Below, piece by piece: positions 12,267-32,551 of a stretch of 33,165 bases of DNA. The position numbers and the translations under genes were made by a program. This stretch comes from a virus. The notes under the pieces were generated by a model. It did not search any database. It was not told the origin of the DNA and saw only the letters and a program-made list of their open reading frames with translations. Positions within the stretch are counted from its first letter, which is position 1; each line of letters opens with the position of its first letter. The stretch covers positions 1-33,165 of the IMG/VR virus record IMGVR_UViG_3300045999_006056; one strand, given 5' to 3'.

Positions 12267-12358
12267 TGCTAACAAGCAATATATGTAATTGCCTATTAAG
12301 GTTTATATTAATTTTTAAGTTTATAGTAGGCAACTACATATATTGCCGACCGTTAGCG
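12267..12358 (+). repeat. attC-like site C
   Basis: Left half-core TGCTAAC (12267-12273), two spacer bases, arm 12276-12295, arm 12327-12346 (19 of 20 complementary), spacer CGACC, right half-core GTTAGCG (12352-12358). This is the best-paired stem of the five. Confidence 0.82.
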
Positions 12359-12429: not shown

Positions 12430-12816
12430 ATGACTATAATAAATTCGCAAACAATATTCACTATGTTAGGAACATTACTACTAACATTAATATCAGTTGT
12501 GCTGACAAGATACCTCGAACTATATATGCCAGACAAAAAAACGGCAAATTCAAATATAAAAAAATGGTTCATTTTTGCTGTTAAATATTTATTACCAACC
12601 TCGACACTTATTATAGTTCTAATGCGGGACAGCATTGATAAATTTTTTGTTTTCGGTGTTTCTTTTTCTTTCTTTATCATACTTGTTAATTTTATTTTAG
12701 ACACTGCAACTAGACTACTTAAAATCAATGAATCTCACCAAAAAAACATGGGCAAAATTATTGGAGTTACAGAATCAATTTTATATATATTTAAAAATAA
12801 AGACGGCAAGAATTAA
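12430..12816 (+). CDS. Cassette 3: membrane protein, 128 aa
   Basis: Plus-strand gene starting MTIINSQTIFTMLGTLLLTL. Membrane segments lie at about residues 9-26, 46-64 and 72-91, followed by a soluble basic tail (RLLKINESHQKNMGK). The stop is 5 bases before the left half-core of site D. No family is recognised and no signal peptide cleavage site is evident. As with cassette 1, a small hydrophobic protein on the strand opposite to the phage genes. A role in membrane stress or superinfection control is possible, but this is only a guess. Confidence 0.7.
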   Translation: MTIINSQTIFTMLGTLLLTLISVVLTRYLELYMPDKKTANSNIKKWFIFAVKYLLPTSTLIIVLMRDSIDKFFVFGVSFSFFIILVNFILDTATRLLKINESHQKNMGKIIGVTESILYIFKNKDGKN

Positions 12817-12821
12817 CCTAC

Positions 12822-12903
12822 CGCTAACATTGGCTAAGCGTAAGTTTTAGGCAGCCCACAGATGCCATTAAAAAACCTAACGCCTAGCCAAAAACCGTTA
12901 GTG
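12822..12903 (+). repeat. attC-like site D
   Basis: Left half-core CGCTAAC (12822-12828), one spacer base, arm from 12830 to 12851, arm 12876-12891 (15 of 16 complementary, with a 6-base bulge in the left arm), spacer AAACC, right half-core GTTAGTG (12897-12903). Confidence 0.78.
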
Positions 12904-13260
12904 GCTATGCCGTTGGACACCCTGCAACATATCAATCAACATTAGTAATTGCCACATTTTATCAATCTTAATTTCTTGAAATTCTGTTCCTTGAACTATC
13001 TCAACTGTTGTGCTTTGATACTTGTATGTATCAGGTGCTTCAACGAACTTGAAACTATCAGTAATATGAATTTCAAGGTCGCCTACAACCTTCTTTTTGT
13101 ATGTGTCAATTTTCAGACTATAATATTCATCTGTTGCAAAGTCTTTATCATAATCAACTTTACATTCAAAGCCGTATTTATCTTCCAAATGAGTGGACAC
13201 GATAGGCACAGCAGCTAACAAGGTATTGGCAAAAAAGCCGTTTTGTTCTTCGTTTGACAT
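12898..13260 (-). CDS. Cassette 4: hypothetical soluble protein, 120 aa
   Basis: Minus-strand gene starting MSNEEQNGFFANTLLAA at 13260. The body has YGFECKVDYDKDFATDEYYSLKIDTYKKKVVGDLEIHITDSFK, an alternating pattern consistent with a small beta sheet, and it ends in QRHSH. No known domain was recognised. The stop codon TAA is part of the right half-core of site D. The first 13 or so codons lie inside the left arm and centre of site E, so the gene spans nearly the whole cassette and overlaps two recombination-site candidates. Confidence 0.7.
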   Translation of the reverse strand: MSNEEQNGFFANTLLAAVPIVSTHLEDKYGFECKVDYDKDFATDEYYSLKIDTYKKKVVGDLEIHITDSFKFVEAPDTYKYQSTTVEIVQGTEFQEIKIDKMWQLLMLIDMLQGVQRHSH

Positions 13261-14557: not shown

Positions 14558-15526
14558 TTAAAATGGTGGTTTAAATGGATCGTTTAAATTTATTGTTGAT
14601 TGTATTTCGTTTGTTGGTGCTTTGTACTTTTGTTTAAAAGGGCTTTCAACTTGGTAAATAATACCATCAATAGTTTCTGAATAGCACTTTTGATGAAAAT
14701 GATAATCTAGTTTAACTGTTCCTGTTTTGCCAACTATTCGAGGTTTTACTTTTTGAATAATTACATCAACTTCATTTCCTAGCTGCATATTTCCATTTAT
14801 TTCTACATAGTCACGATTAACGCAAATCATGTTGTATGCCTTTTGAATCCAAGCTGCACCACCATCAATTTCATAAACTGTTGGTGCTTTTGGCAAATCT
14901 CCAGTTTTGTTTCCAGTTGGGTTTCTAGCATGGCAAATCAAAAAAGAATGAACATTTTGAGTTAATGCTAACTTATTCCATTTCGGTAATTTCCGTTTTA
15001 AATAATCCGATACGTTGCTATAATTTTCGTGTTCAATGTCATTCCAATTATCAATCGAAGTAGTGTGTATTCCAAACTCTTTTTTACATGATTTAACCAG
15101 CTTTATGTATTCCTCAAAGTCCAAACCTTTTTCGTCTGTATCTTCGCAAACAATAAAATGTTCTTGAACAAATGGTTGTACTTTATAATATTCTTGTTCG
15201 GTTATTACATTACTTTTTCTACTATCAAATGTTTTCCCAGTTAAACCATGAATAATCATTGAATATATTTCAGCACTCGAACCACTTTCAGGGCTGTAAA
15301 TCAAGTGTTTTTTACCATATTTTAAACTCAAAGAAATTAACAATTGAAACAAAAACTCACTTTTGCCCATTCTGGGATATCCATAAATTATAGTTGTTCC
15401 TGTTGGTTTAACCATGTAAAAGTCGTCTAATGTTTTAAAACCAGTGCTTAATAATTCCGCTGCGCTGTTTTCAAGTAATTTTAAAACCTTTTCATTTATG
15501 TCGAATAATCGTGTTATAACTGCCAT
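14558..15526 (-). CDS. RecA/DnaB-like replicative ATPase, 322 aa
   Basis: Start chosen at 15526, one base after the upstream stop; an in-frame ATG 42 bases earlier lies inside that gene. Walker A is GYPRMGKS (residues 49-56) and Walker B is TTSIDNW with D159. A later stretch (QNVHSFLICHARNP, about residues 200-215) carries the His and Arg typical of motif H3/H4 in DnaB/twinkle-type helicases. The fold is that of the DnaB C-terminal domain without a primase or N-terminal domain, so it may need a partner. It follows the DUF4373 replication protein and likely unwinds DNA at the phage origin. Confidence 0.8.
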   Translation of the reverse strand: MAVITRLFDINEKVLKLLENSAAELLSTGFKTLDDFYMVKPTGTTIIYGYPRMGKSEFLFQLLISLSLKYGKKHLIYSPESGSSAEIYSMIIHGLTGKTFDSRKSNVITEQEYYKVQPFVQEHFIVCEDTDEKGLDFEEYIKLVKSCKKEFGIHTTSIDNWNDIEHENYSNVSDYLKRKLPKWNKLALTQNVHSFLICHARNPTGNKTGDLPKAPTVYEIDGGAAWIQKAYNMICVNRDYVEINGNMQLGNEVDVIIQKVKPRIVGKTGTVKLDYHFHQKCYSETIDGIIYQVESPFKQKYKAPTNEIQSTINLNDPFKPPF

Positions 15527-15527
15527 T

Positions 15528-16214
15528 TTAGTAAATGATTGGTAAATTTTTAGGGTTTCTAGGGTCAATTACTTTGCTTTCAAATTTTAGCTTTCCTTGT
15601 AACTCGTCACGCTTTGCCCAATTATTTATAGCTGACTTCCAATTTACATATTTATTACCCTCGTTTGAATAAGCCATTGCAGCTTCATAGTAGTATAAAA
15701 GTTTTGTAGTGTTCCATTCAGCAAATTCAGCTTTAAAAATATTCTTATCAAATAAATTGCAATTATTAAATAATACTTTCTTTTCTTTACTTTCCTTTAC
15801 TTTAATAGTATCGTTTCGTATTACGTTCGTATTCGGTTGTATTACGTTCGTATCATTTTTTAAAAGCTTTTGTTTGTCCCACCTAGCATTTATTGATGTT
15901 GTGGCTTTTTCGCTTTTCAATAACATTGATTGCTTTAAACGATTTGAATAAAAAAACTCATCGTTTTCTATAATAAATAAACTGTAATTTTTTACAACTG
16001 CATTTACTTTTTCTTTGGAAGTTCCCCACCTTTTTGCAAATGATTCTAAAACAATAAGCGGTAATTTATATTCACTTTCAGCTCTTAATTTTTCAACTAA
16101 TAACCAAAATATTCCATAACCTTCTACTCCTAATTGGTCAATTAAAACCATACACTTTGGATCGTCTTGTGCATTTGCATCATGACTGAAATAATAAGCG
16201 TCTTTTTTTGCCAT
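15528..16214 (-). CDS. DUF4373 (Lin1244/Lin1753-like) replication protein, 228 aa
   Basis: The start at 16214 (MAKKDAYYFSHDANAQDDPK) is preferred; an upstream in-frame ATG at 16268 would translate the terminator hairpin. The N-terminal 90 residues match the Lin1244/Lin1753-like pattern: YYFSHD, DQLGVEGYGIFWLLVEKL, and a winged-helix-like SFAKRWGTSKEKVN. The C-terminal part ends in KYVNWKSAINNWAKRDEL, the usual DnaD-like tail. Such proteins are replication initiators or helicase loaders of Bacteroidetes and Firmicutes phages. Expression is probably controlled by the leader at 16228-16322. Confidence 0.82.
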   Translation of the reverse strand: MAKKDAYYFSHDANAQDDPKCMVLIDQLGVEGYGIFWLLVEKLRAESEYKLPLIVLESFAKRWGTSKEKVNAVVKNYSLFIIENDEFFYSNRLKQSMLLKSEKATTSINARWDKQKLLKNDTNVIQPNTNVIRNDTIKVKESKEKKVLFNNCNLFDKNIFKAEFAEWNTTKLLYYYEAAMAYSNEGNKYVNWKSAINNWAKRDELQGKLKFESKVIDPRNPKNLPIIY

Positions 16215-16227
16215 AACTTTAAAAACG

Positions 16228-16259
16228 AAAAAACCCCCAACAGTTGCAGCTATTGAGGG
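16228..16259 (-). terminator. Attenuator terminator before the replication operon
   Basis: On the minus strand: CCCTCAATAG, loop CTGCAA, CTGTTGGGGG, then six T. The stem has 10 pairs including G-U pairs. It stands 14 bases before the ATG at 16214 and after the promoter at 16331, so it can only act on transcripts entering this operon. Confidence 0.85.
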
Positions 16260-16322
16260 CTTAATCATATACTTTTACACCATGTTAAAGTTCGATTATG
16301 TTAGTTGGCTGCAAACAACTAA
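16228..16322 (-). promoter_or_regulatory. Leader RNA 1 with loop-loop complementarity
   Basis: The transcript starts with hairpin TTAGTTG, loop TTTGCAGC, CAACTAA (16322-16301). A 41-nt linker follows that includes ATCGAA and TGATTA, then the terminator at 16228-16259. The 7 bases TTGCAGC of the first loop are the exact complement of GCTGCAA, which forms the terminator loop plus one stem base. The same layout recurs at 18766-18870 with different loop sequences. Pairing of the first loop and its 5' arm with the terminator could act as an antiterminator. Confidence 0.7.
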
Positions 16323-16330
16323 TTGTTTTA

Positions 16331-16360
16331 CAAAAGTAGCATTTTATTTTACTTTCGCAA
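16331..16360 (-). promoter_or_regulatory. Promoter of the replication operon
   Basis: On the minus strand: TTG, 19 bases, TACTTTTG, a perfect consensus, 10 bases after the stop of the methyltransferase gene. The first hairpin of leader RNA 1 begins 8 bases after the -7 box, that is at about position +3 or +4 of the transcript. Confidence 0.88.
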
Positions 16361-16369
16361 GTTTATTTT

Positions 16370-17392
16370 TTAAATCAATTCAAGTGTTTTAAAATTTGTT
16401 TTGAATCGCTTTTGACATTCTTTCATATTCAAAATAGCTTGTTTATAGTAACTATCTTTTAGCTCAATCCCGATAGCTTTTCTACCCATTGAAACGGGAC
16501 TAAAAACTTCGCTACCTACACCCATAAAAGGAGTTAGTACTACTTCATTTTGATTTGAATACAATTCTACAATTCTATCAATTACATCCAATTGTAGCGG
16601 GTGAACGTGTTTCTCATCGTCAACATCTTTCGAGTCTCTAAATGGTAAAATGTTATCAATCCTTATGTCTTCCCAAACACTTGAAGCGTAACGCTGCCAA
16701 ATATAGTGACTTAATTTATTACTTTTTGGATCTTCATGGTTTTCGAAATTAGCATTTAAATATTCCCACAATTGAGTTTCATTTAAATTACTTTCGTTTG
16801 CATTATTCCATGCTTTTAAAATGTTTGGCAAAATAGGGGTTTCACCAGCATAATATTTTAACCCGCACGGATGTGTTACTGGAACTTCGTTATCACCTTT
16901 TTTTGTAAAAATTAATACATAATCTGGCATAGCTGTAAAACATTTTGTAGAATCTTCAACTATAAATTTATGCATTAGACTTTGTACCATTGTTCTCATT
17001 CGAACCTTTAAAGGCTCTTTCCAAATAGTAATGCGGTTTCTGTACTCAAAACCATACTTCTCGTGTAATTTAATTACTTCGTGTGGAAAGTCCCACAAAC
17101 GACAAGTATTATCAAATACATCGGTGCAATGAACCGCATTGATACGACCTTTTTTCGTAACCCTTGCTAATTCTTTTATCAAAAATTCGTACTGATCTAA
17201 AAACTGTTCTTTTGTTTCGCAGTTACTAAAATCATTTTCAGAACTTGAATAATTATAAAGTCCCGCGAATGGTGGTGAATAAACTACTAAGTCTATACTT
17301 TCATTCTCTAAGGTCGGTAAAACTAACATACAATCACTATTGTAAATTGCATAATTTTCTGTAACTAATTGGTCTTTTACTTTGTTTTCCAT
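16370..17392 (-). CDS. DNA methyltransferase (N4-cytosine/N6-adenine, beta type), 340 aa
   Basis: The catalytic motif IV SPPF is at residues 39-42, and the AdoMet-binding motif I FMGVGS at 289-294 near the C-terminus. That order is of the beta class. The end (GRKAIGIELKDSYYKQAI) carries the acidic residue that holds the AdoMet ribose. Between them lies a target-recognition region. No restriction gene is adjacent, so it is an orphan enzyme probably protecting phage DNA from host restriction or marking it for packaging. It starts 2 bases after the helicase stop and shares its leader. Confidence 0.85.
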   Translation of the reverse strand: MENKVKDQLVTENYAIYNSDCMLVLPTLENESIDLVVYSPPFAGLYNYSSSENDFSNCETKEQFLDQYEFLIKELARVTKKGRINAVHCTDVFDNTCRLWDFPHEVIKLHEKYGFEYRNRITIWKEPLKVRMRTMVQSLMHKFIVEDSTKCFTAMPDYVLIFTKKGDNEVPVTHPCGLKYYAGETPILPNILKAWNNANESNLNETQLWEYLNANFENHEDPKSNKLSHYIWQRYASSVWEDIRIDNILPFRDSKDVDDEKHVHPLQLDVIDRIVELYSNQNEVVLTPFMGVGSEVFSPVSMGRKAIGIELKDSYYKQAILNMKECQKRFKTNFKTLELI

Positions 17393-17394
17393 GT

Positions 17395-18759
17395 TTAAAA
17401 ATTTGGTTTTATTATTGATTTATTAAATTCTTTTACTTTGTTTTCAAAACTTCTTTTTACGTTTTCAGTAAGTTTTTTATGAAGTTGAATTGCTTTTTGT
17501 GTTTTCTGTTCAATCGCTTCGAGCACTCTAGTTTGTCCATCTGAAACAACTAAATCAATGTTTACATCATTTAATTGCCCAAACCTCCAAAACCTCCTAA
17601 TCGCTTGGTAATATTGTTCATAACTCCATGTAGGAAAATATACAGAGTGGTTGCAATGTTGCCAATTCAAACCAAATGAGGTCATTTTAGCTTTTGTAAT
17701 TATTCTTTTTATTTCGCCTTTTGAAAACGCTAACAAAATTTCTTCTTTGCGTTCAATAGATTGACTCCCAATTATTTCAACTGCTTGTTTATCTTGTGAT
17801 TTAAGTATTGAGCTTTCGTTGTTGGTATTGCACCAGTACACCGATGTTTTGCCCCATGCTAAGTCTATTGCTTTTTCGCATCTTTTTTCTTCTGTTTGTT
17901 TTTGCTCAAGTCTAACCTCAGTCATACTTTTTGCAATTGGAACAAACATTGTTATTTGACCATTTACATCAAACATTGATTGGTTTTTTACAATATGATT
18001 GTTTATGTTCAAATTTGGTAACGAATATCTATCATTGCTAAAACCTAAATCACTAGGCATTTTTGCCATAATTGACCATTGATTTACCCATGCAAAAAAA
18101 TCTTTTTCGGCATGTGGTTTTAAATAAAACTTTTCTCCAATATTTCGATTATTCGAATCAACTGAATTTTGATTATTTTTAAAAAACTTTGTAAGCATAT
18201 CCATATAGCCCATATACCCCAATGCTTCGCTACTTGTGCCTAATTCGATAAAATCGTTTGGACTTGGTGTTGCAGTGCTTAAAAATCTGTATGGGATTTT
18301 CTTTACAAAAGCATTTACTTGACCTTTTATTTTACCATCAAAGTTTTTTAAAATACTGCTTTCATCTAAAATTATACCCTCAAAATCATTTGAATCGAAA
18401 TAATGTAACCGCTCGTAATTGCAAATAACTATTTTTTTCGTGTGTTTGCCATCTTTTGAGTATTCTATGTCGTATATACCAATCTTTTCGGCTTCTAATA
18501 TAAACTGAAAAGCAACCGCTAAAGGTGTTAAAATTAGTACCTTTTTGTTGGTATGATTAACAATATTTTTGGCTAAAGATAATTGAACCAATGTTTTGCC
18601 CAATCCGGTGTCTAAAAAAATAGCCGACCTCCCTTTTAAAATTGCTTTTTCAATAACATATTTTTGGAAATCAAAAGCAATGTCAGGTATATAATTTGCC
18701 TCAAATCCAAAATTACCTACTGAATGCCGTTTTTTGTTTAAAAATTCTTCGTACTTCAT
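17395..18759 (-). CDS. SNF2-like DEAD/DEAH helicase, 454 aa
   Basis: The start at 18759 (MKYEEFLNKKRHS) is chosen because the eight extra residues of a longer frame come from the terminator U-tract. Walker A is TGLGKT (51-56), the DExx box DESS (132-135), motif III STATP (161-165), and the C-terminal helicase lobe ends in RRFWRFGQ (about 388-395), an arginine-finger motif VI. This SNF2-type phage helicase is usually found near replication or methyltransferase genes and may remodel or unwind phage DNA. It is the first gene of a two-gene operon behind leader RNA 2. Confidence 0.85.
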   Translation of the reverse strand: MKYEEFLNKKRHSVGNFGFEANYIPDIAFDFQKYVIEKAILKGRSAIFLDTGLGKTLVQLSLAKNIVNHTNKKVLILTPLAVAFQFILEAEKIGIYDIEYSKDGKHTKKIVICNYERLHYFDSNDFEGIILDESSILKNFDGKIKGQVNAFVKKIPYRFLSTATPSPNDFIELGTSSEALGYMGYMDMLTKFFKNNQNSVDSNNRNIGEKFYLKPHAEKDFFAWVNQWSIMAKMPSDLGFSNDRYSLPNLNINNHIVKNQSMFDVNGQITMFVPIAKSMTEVRLEQKQTEEKRCEKAIDLAWGKTSVYWCNTNNESSILKSQDKQAVEIIGSQSIERKEEILLAFSKGEIKRIITKAKMTSFGLNWQHCNHSVYFPTWSYEQYYQAIRRFWRFGQLNDVNIDLVVSDGQTRVLEAIEQKTQKAIQLHKKLTENVKRSFENKVKEFNKSIIKPNF

Positions 18760-18765
18760 TTTCGT

Positions 18766-18806
18766 AAAAAAGAAAAGCCCCAAAAGAGTAGTAGTCTAGT
18801 GGGGCT
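18766..18806 (-). terminator. Attenuator terminator before the helicase operon
   Basis: On the minus strand: AGCCCCA, 17-nt loop, TGGGGCT, then TTTCTTTTTT. The stem has 7 pairs and ends 16 bases before the ATG at 18759. The loop contains CTACTAC, complementary to the upstream leader hairpin loop. Confidence 0.85.
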
Positions 18807-18870
18807 AATCAATATATTTTCGTTTGAGTGAAAATTCGATTTAAATTAACTGGCTACTACCTCAGTCAAT
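18766..18870 (-). promoter_or_regulatory. Leader RNA 2 with loop-loop complementarity
   Basis: Minus-strand order: hairpin ATTGACTG, loop AGGTAGTAGC, CAGTTAAT (18870-18845), a 38-nt linker with ATCGAA and TGATTA, and the terminator 18766-18806. GTAGTAG in the first loop is the exact complement of CTACTAC in the terminator loop. The linker keywords match leader RNA 1, but the loops do not, so the complementarity has been conserved while the sequence changed. Confidence 0.7.
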
Positions 18871-18877
18871 GGTGGTG

Positions 18878-18909
18878 CAATAATAAATAAATATTTCTAT
18901 TTTTTACAA
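18878..18909 (-). promoter_or_regulatory. Probable promoter of the helicase operon
   Basis: Minus strand: TTG, 21 bases, TATTATTG. The -7 box has one mismatch to TAnnTTTG and the spacing is two longer than usual, so it should be weaker than the one at 16331. The leader hairpin begins 7 bases after the -7 box, as at the other leader. It overlaps the end of the 88-residue gene. Confidence 0.5.
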
Positions 18910-28397: not shown

Positions 28398-28715
28398 TTA
28401 AACTAATTCTACTAATTCCATAAGTGTAGGAATATCTAAAATCAAAGATATATTTTCGTTTAAATCTTCGCTTTTAATTGGGGACATTCTGCCAGCTAAA
28501 TGAATTTCAGTATCTTCAAAACCTGCTTTAAATTTATATGTTTTTTCGCCTTCGTTAGGCTCTGTTTTCTTTGCCATTTTATTGAAATAATTAAACACTT
28601 TTACTTTGTCAGACCAGCAAGTTTGACACGGTTTATTTAAAGTGAGTTGCTCGTATTCTGCGAACAACTCACTCCAATTATTTATTTGATAAATGCTATT
28701 GCCTAGGTGAAGCAT
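28398..28715 (-). CDS. Hypothetical CxxC protein, 105 aa
   Basis: Starts MLHLGNSIYQINNW at 28715, overlapping the 201-residue gene by 13 bases. It contains a CQTC pair (about residues 30-33), then a basic-acidic linker MAKKTEPNEGEKTYKF, and an acidic end. The CxxC pair could bind a metal, but no family is recognised. Located just upstream of the portal, so probably a head or assembly protein. Confidence 0.5.
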   Translation of the reverse strand: MLHLGNSIYQINNWSELFAEYEQLTLNKPCQTCWSDKVKVFNYFNKMAKKTEPNEGEKTYKFKAGFEDTEIHLAGRMSPIKSEDLNENISLILDIPTLMELVELV

Positions 28716-32476: not shown

Positions 32477-32551
32477 TGCGGTTTAGGGGAGCGGCACTCC
32501 GTTAGGCTCATAACCTAAAGTTCATCGGTTCGAGTCCGATAACCGCAACCA
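32477..32551 (+). tRNA. tRNA with anticodon CAT (Met, or Ile if lysidine-modified)
   Basis: A complete 75-nt cloverleaf: acceptor TGCGGTT/AACCGCA, discriminator A, D-arm GGGG/CTCC with loop AGCGGCA, anticodon stem TTAGG/CCTAA with loop CTCATAA (anticodon CAT), and T-arm ATCGG/CCGAT with loop TTCGAGT. CCA is encoded (32549-32551). The absence of the three G-C pairs of initiator anticodon stems argues against an initiator. It could be elongator Met or Ile2 after lysidine modification. Transcribed from its own promoter. Confidence 0.93.

Follow-up and report, generated by a model that had tools for sequence, protein, structure and literature searches.

Complementary loops in 5' hairpins and terminators of phage leaders point to a candidate RNA switch before replication genes in Bacteroidota viruses

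The plasmid attenuators of pT181 and pIP501 and the RNAI/RNAII pair of ColE1 combine replication control and attenuation with loop-loop pairing of about 7 bp, whose specificity is set by alleles. The loops of the c4 antisense RNA also vary and match downstream targets. Another type is represented by the put leaders of phage HK022, promoter-proximal hairpins that are conserved and act on RNA polymerase. To our knowledge, early-gene control in phages of Bacteroidota is little described. In phage P4, pairing of the CI RNA with leader RNA governs premature termination before the replication genes, and the IsrK RNA of Gifsy-1 has its 3' end at a Rho-independent terminator, past which read-through reaches the genes (PMC4825925).

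The window analyzed here is a 33,165-base virus record with two intergenic leaders, both on the minus strand. Each comprises a 5' hairpin (H1), a linker, and a predicted intrinsic terminator whose apical loop is complementary to the loop of H1; we call such elements kissing-terminator leaders. This layout, known here from sequence alone, fits leader pairing before replication genes, as in the case of P4. The P4 CI RNA acts in trans after processing and is flanked by seqA and seqC, whereas here a 5' hairpin loop has the apical loop of an intrinsic terminator as its partner, the carriers are Bacteroidota phages, and each genome has at least one different word. Like c4 of P1/P7 and IsrK, the leaders are phage RNAs sharing a promoter with the genes they would control, but the putative target is neither a ribosome site nor a Rho-dependent region; it is a terminator loop. 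The plasmid systems pT181, pIP501, and ColE1 use a counter-transcribed antisense RNA, whereas both loops of a kissing leader belong to one strand and one transcript. Unlike HK022 put, the leaders share no conserved sequence, and complementarity to the terminator loop is conserved instead. A 5' hairpin loop that pairs with a terminator apical loop by freely varying matched words fits none of the definitions of P4 CI RNA, c4/IsrK, and plasmid attenuators; by analogy, its proposed logic resembles all of these.

A preliminary description of this DNA knew of no family with this layout, and our searches agree. No Rfam 15 family exceeds its gathering cut-off over the leaders, the covariance model of the c4 antisense RNA (RF01695) does not match them, and a literature search for a kissing-loop phage terminator leader, with thin coverage of subscription journals and preprints, found none. 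The gap in Rfam may reflect the blindness of sequence-profile searches to loop-loop pairing. The window also gave a match to His_leader, at E 2.5 and below the cut-off, which was judged to be chance. Rfam also locates a tRNA gene with the CAT anticodon at 32477-32548 on the plus strand.

Both leaders of the window have a TTG at -33, a spacer of 19 or 21 nt, and a -7 box of the form TAnnNTTG, with H1 within about 8 nt (Table 1). The loops match exactly over 7 nt, TTGCAGC/GCTGCAA in leader 1 and GTAGTAG/CTACTAC in leader 2. Folding yields both hairpins in each leader (z of -3.0 and -3.9, with 0 of 200 shuffles as stable) and recovers H1, the inner part of the linker hairpin P2, and the terminator. 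Thus, sequence and folding confirm the hairpin-linker-terminator layout and the 7-nt complementarity given in the preliminary description. The words ATCGAA and TGATTA, which occur in the 38-nt linker, represent two sides of P2, a third hairpin formed by TAATCG/TGATTA and an inner stem. The suggested paralogy of the two leaders is supported by their alignment (A4), in which the inner stem of P2 shows a C-G to U-A exchange between leaders 1 and 2. The start codons are at 16214 and 18759, in each case 16 nt past the terminator. Pfam matches and a survey of downstream genes agree with the initial placement of the leaders before helicase/methyltransferase and replication genes.

Table 1. Features of the two kissing-terminator leaders and adjacent genes in the window
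Feature	Position	Strand	Sequence or remark	Basis
Leader 1, -33 TTG	16358-16360	minus	spacer of 19 nt to the -7 box	
Leader 1, -7 box	16331..16338	minus	TACTTTTG, fits Bacteroidota TAnnTTTG	
Leader 1, hairpin H1	16301..16322	minus	stem TTAGTTG/CAACTAA, loop TTTGCAGC	folding and stem covariation
Leader 1, kissing segment in H1 loop	16308-16314	minus	TTGCAGC	
Leader 1, linker hairpin P2	16262..16298	minus	TAATCG (16293-16298) with TGATTA (16262-16267)	
Leader 1, P2 inner stem		minus	ACTTT/AAAGT	sequence and fold (inner stem)
Leader 1, intrinsic terminator	16231..16262	minus	followed by TTTTTTCGTTTTT	predicted
Leader 1, terminator kissing loop	16244-16250	minus	GCTGCAA	
Gene after leader 1	15528..16214	minus	Lin1244_N replication protein, 228 aa	Pfam
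Next gene in leader 1 operon	14558-15535	minus	DnaB_C-like ATPase	Pfam
Leader 2, -33 TTG	18907-18909	minus	spacer of 21 nt to the -7 box	
Leader 2, -7 box	18878..18885	minus	TATTATTG	sequence
Leader 2, hairpin H1	around 18846..18870	minus	loop AGGTAGTAGC	folding
Leader 2, kissing segment in H1 loop	18854-18860	minus	GTAGTAG	
Leader 2, linker hairpin P2	18807..18842, ends approximate	minus	AATCGA...TTGATT	fold and alignment
Leader 2, P2 inner stem		minus	ATTTTC/GAAAAT	fold and alignment
Leader 2, intrinsic terminator	18776..18806	minus	AGCCCCA/TGGGGCT, T-rich tail after	predicted
Leader 2, terminator kissing loop	18788-18794	minus	CTACTAC	
Gene after leader 2	17395..18759	minus	SNF2/DEAD-like helicase, 454 aa	Pfam
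Next gene in leader 2 operon	16370-17392	minus	N6_N4 DNA methyltransferase	Pfam

Because a 7-nt match is weak in a single genome, we examined homologs of the window helicase and replication protein, inspecting 140 nt upstream of the gene. The leaders of these relatives have the same arrangement with unrelated sequences and different loop words. A detector combining H1, a terminator, and a 7-nt match, which needs seven contiguous Watson-Crick pairs and misses 6-nt cases, found 77 promoter-linked matches in 0.96 Mb vs. 5, 8, and 5 in dinucleotide shuffles. In a test blind to complementarity, every promoter-terminator-ATG leader was taken and the matches were counted afterwards; at least 7 nt matched in 47 of 77 leaders, compared with 7.2% of cross pairs. 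Terminators flanked by a -7 box and an ATG matched the 5' segment over at least 7 nt in 56 of 100 cases (7.3% of cross pairs), or in 52 of 100 (7.4%) after removal of redundancy. Among about 1245 terminators that lack a promoter or a start codon, 9-12% matched, the same as in their own mismatched control. The excess recurs in later locus sets: matches of at least 7 nt are present in 38 of 53 leaders of one set (72% vs. 8.7% mismatched), 28 of them extending over at least 8 nt where 1.7 are expected, and 10 of 32 leaders of another set are matched (31% vs. 7%). Alphaproteobacterial-type helicase neighborhoods show no enrichment of loop matches. The shuffles, the cross pairs, and the later locus sets rule out a chance origin. 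An upstream TTG is situated 17-23 nt before the -7 box in 30 of 58 leaders and at 13.6% of control positions. No third leader was found in the window: the other detector matches are located within coding sequence or have no promoter or no ATG, and we therefore rejected them as chance. Inverted repeats occur at 12815-12905, with a detector match that lacks a promoter, and at 12268-12358, with a weak and surely spurious match to a miRNA model.

The covariation of the loops can be observed at several levels. Among the 13 leaders of the window subfamily, pairing reaches 100% in the H1 stem and 93.8% in the loop-loop helix, and each of these has five pairs in which both sides have changed. A second subfamily, with eight leaders, shows such two-sided changes in six of its eight loop-loop pairs. 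The covariance model R1 contains the H1 and terminator stems only and found 58 leaders, with an alignment blind to loop pairing. Across its 45 distinct rows, 98.5% of the loop-loop helix is paired, and the 327 loop-loop cells include 88 double changes, one G-U pair, and 5 unpaired cases. Six of eight pairs again changed on both sides (score 0.571 vs. 0.183 shuffled, 0/500), and pairing falls to 28-59% when the partner is shifted by one to three columns. The H1 and terminator loops of homologous leaders thus covary, as expected from the earlier suggestion that their pairing had been preserved through compensating change.

Close relatives provide individual examples. The near-identical Flavobacterium phages hattifnatt and snusmum, whose leaders come from IMG/VR records assigned to the isolates by sequence match, carry GTGAGACG/CGTCTCAC vs. 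GTGGAACG/CGTTCCAC, with matched changes. A matched change is also seen in the 6-nt loops of the related leaders L256:6678 and L258:4973 (GTGCAT/ATGCAC vs. GCGCAT/ATGCGC). Window leader 1 and its homolog in L112 retain the same backbone but differ in the H1 loop, TTTGCAGC vs. AGGTCGAAGC, and the terminator loops match accordingly; the loops differ by 35% and the non-loop positions by 12%. For L055 compared with L056/L123, these values are 25% and 7%. Such loop switching beyond backbone change is seen only in some close pairs, and over all of them faster loop evolution is absent (199/1179 in loops vs. 1208/6828 in the rest). A few leaders are imperfect, such as that of Bacteroides phage BF766P1 with one mismatch in the loop match. 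The loop alleles AGGTCGAAGC and GTAGTAG reappear in unrelated backgrounds. The word GTNGNRG is found in the H1 loops of 7 of 51 alleles, which is above shuffles, and was rejected as a general rule for this loop.

The family set consists of 60 curated leaders, pruned and extended by hand and non-redundant at a threshold of 75% identity over 60 nt. Median values are 5 nt from the -7 box to the start of H1, 6 pairs for the H1 stem, and 18 nt from the terminator to the ATG; most loop-loop matches span 7-10 nt. When the hairpins are folded separately, 85% and 84% of the complementary letters are unpaired, compared with 56% and 36% in control windows. Some linkers are short and have no structure; the long ones mostly hold a local hairpin, so that the effective length is mostly 3-20 unpaired nt. 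They are conserved within subfamilies (AAAATATTATA in A2, P2 in the window subfamily), and no family-wide motif is present, with ATTA in 33 of 60 leaders vs. 30 shuffled. We propose to define the family by a promoter no more than about 10 nt before H1, an H1 loop complementary to the terminator loop, and an ATG at most about 50 nt downstream of the terminator, as found here. Separately, a short conserved element, AATAGTTTATCGGTATCTTAAAACCGTTATTATTATGGC, occurs in the terminator-ATG interval of L368, L374, L400, L414, L439, and others; its CGG/CCG-type stem differs among phages and has no Rfam match. This subfamily, including Cellulophaga phi10:1, precedes a small MAKFE-like protein. The Rfam DUF805b RNA (RF02914) at L013:376-408 adjoins the end of a kissing-terminator leader and lies outside it.

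All downstream genes of recognizable function are early or replication genes, and none is structural. They encode helicases, replication initiators, primase-like and recombination proteins, methyltransferases, HNH endonucleases, and a Rha regulator; several of these names come from reading translations, the Pfam scan having covered the window genes only. The named carriers are Flavobacterium phage snusmum6-1 (three leaders), Cellulophaga phi10:1, and Bacteroides phages B40-8 (leader near 28403-28491), BF766P1, and BF702P1. Leaders within one genome have different loop words, with no cross match of at least 7 nt. We ascribe the family to Bacteroidota phages, which for most of the metagenomic contigs is a presumption. 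No convincing leader was found in phage 6H or in the first 50 kb of crAss001. Model R1 gave zero matches in the host chromosomes of 149 genomes from one bacterial family, a weak negative because the model represents one subfamily and had no positive control genome; its single weak match in another genome was judged spurious. A kissing-type leader at L124:3333 belongs to a phage labeled as infecting Rhodobacteraceae (OP947161.1, LS06-2018-MD05), which also has the helicase/methyltransferase pair of the window at 77% DNA identity. Both features make this host label doubtful. A Bacteroidota phage contig has a match to domains D1-D4 of a group II intron (L116:7404-7609).

We consider it probable that a functional loop-loop interaction modulates the leader terminator in cis. 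Kissing-terminator leaders would then be transcription attenuators of one phage RNA family. Transcription from the host-type promoter would begin a few nucleotides before H1; many transcripts would stop at the predicted terminator, yielding an RNA of about 90-110 nt, and read-through would produce the early or replication mRNA. Within the same transcript, 7-10 Watson-Crick pairs would join the loop of H1 to the apical loop of the terminator. As H1 is transcribed ahead of the terminator, whose loop segment exits the polymerase before its 3' arm, the loop-loop helix can precede the terminator stem. In the nascent state lacking this arm, each loop segment has the other as its preferred partner. 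The helix would thus form in nascent RNA before the terminator closes and set the level of read-through. Most likely it would hamper closure of the terminator base, held back by the short effective linker, and favor read-through. Our preference for this sign, which is only slightly favored over the opposite one, comes from the expectation that a short tether linking H1 to the terminator base would oppose closure of a stem whose loop is docked. The leader transcript, its termination, and read-through are predictions from the sequence, from which we also infer pairing in vivo and its effect on termination.

An antiterminator had also been suggested in the preliminary description. Complementarity of the upstream sequence to either terminator arm equals that in mismatched pairs, and we reject a classical antiterminator, in which one fold excludes the other through a terminator arm. 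Since only the apical loops pair, base pairing alone allows kissing and the terminator to coexist, and the contact may do no more than stabilize the terminated RNA.

Under the proposed control in cis, terminated copies with the same loops could compete for the contacts, leading to more termination as they accumulate. Such competition in trans, which is speculation by analogy, could provide feedback or same-allele exclusion. A reading that we regard as rather unlikely makes the terminated RNA mainly trans-acting: it would pair at both loops with nascent leaders of the same allele and shut the operon, for autoregulation or for exclusion of a related superinfecting phage. The precedent is the P4 CI RNA, whose pairing with leader sequences stops transcription of the replication genes (PMC4825925). 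Different loops in paralogous leaders of one genome and the switches between close relatives that keep the remainder (window leader 1/L112, L055 vs. L056/L123) agree with action in trans, and the recurrence of alleles in unrelated backgrounds is not required by a purely cis role and speaks against it. However, every leader has both partners, and therefore cis pairing would occur at a much higher local concentration; the short effective linkers are unneeded for a trans role, and over all close pairs the loops evolve no faster than the rest. Slightly less probable still is a hypervariable RNA identity code, in which each early operon has its own loop word and the leader RNAs accumulated by a resident phage turn off the replication operons of any co-infecting phage that shares its words. 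If true, the loops would diversify like plasmid incompatibility loops, and an RNA-only exclusion system would extend across the phages of one phylum.

Two other explanations appear improbable. The purpose of the leader could be the short RNA itself, a structured and stable sRNA directed at another target, with the terminator as its 3' end and kissing serving only to compact it. H1 near the expected transcript start would cap such an RNA, and the terminators are strong, but the leaders are tied to gene starts and to early genes, and since the loops change freely no fixed external target fits. A little less credible is a leader that senses a protein or ligand, with a phage or host factor binding the kissing complex or H1 to set termination; linkers conserved within subfamilies would suit it, whereas the absence of a family-wide linker motif and the free variation of stems and loops do not. 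Finally, inverted operator half-sites for a DNA-binding protein, suggested by 7-10-bp repeats that lie directly past the promoter with a spacing of about 70 bp, are very hard to reconcile with segments that are unpaired loops of two separately conserved hairpins, one of them a terminator, and that differ at each operon of a genome.

In summary, the leaders, for which we favor modulation of a terminator in cis, point to a widespread and apparently undescribed RNA switch before replication genes in Bacteroidota viruses. A compact and common element that loop complementarity makes recognizable from sequence alone would open general access to the study of timing, copy control, or exclusion. Its freely variable matched loops make the mechanism accessible to loop-pair swaps and could supply many natural orthogonal terminator-linked RNA switches.
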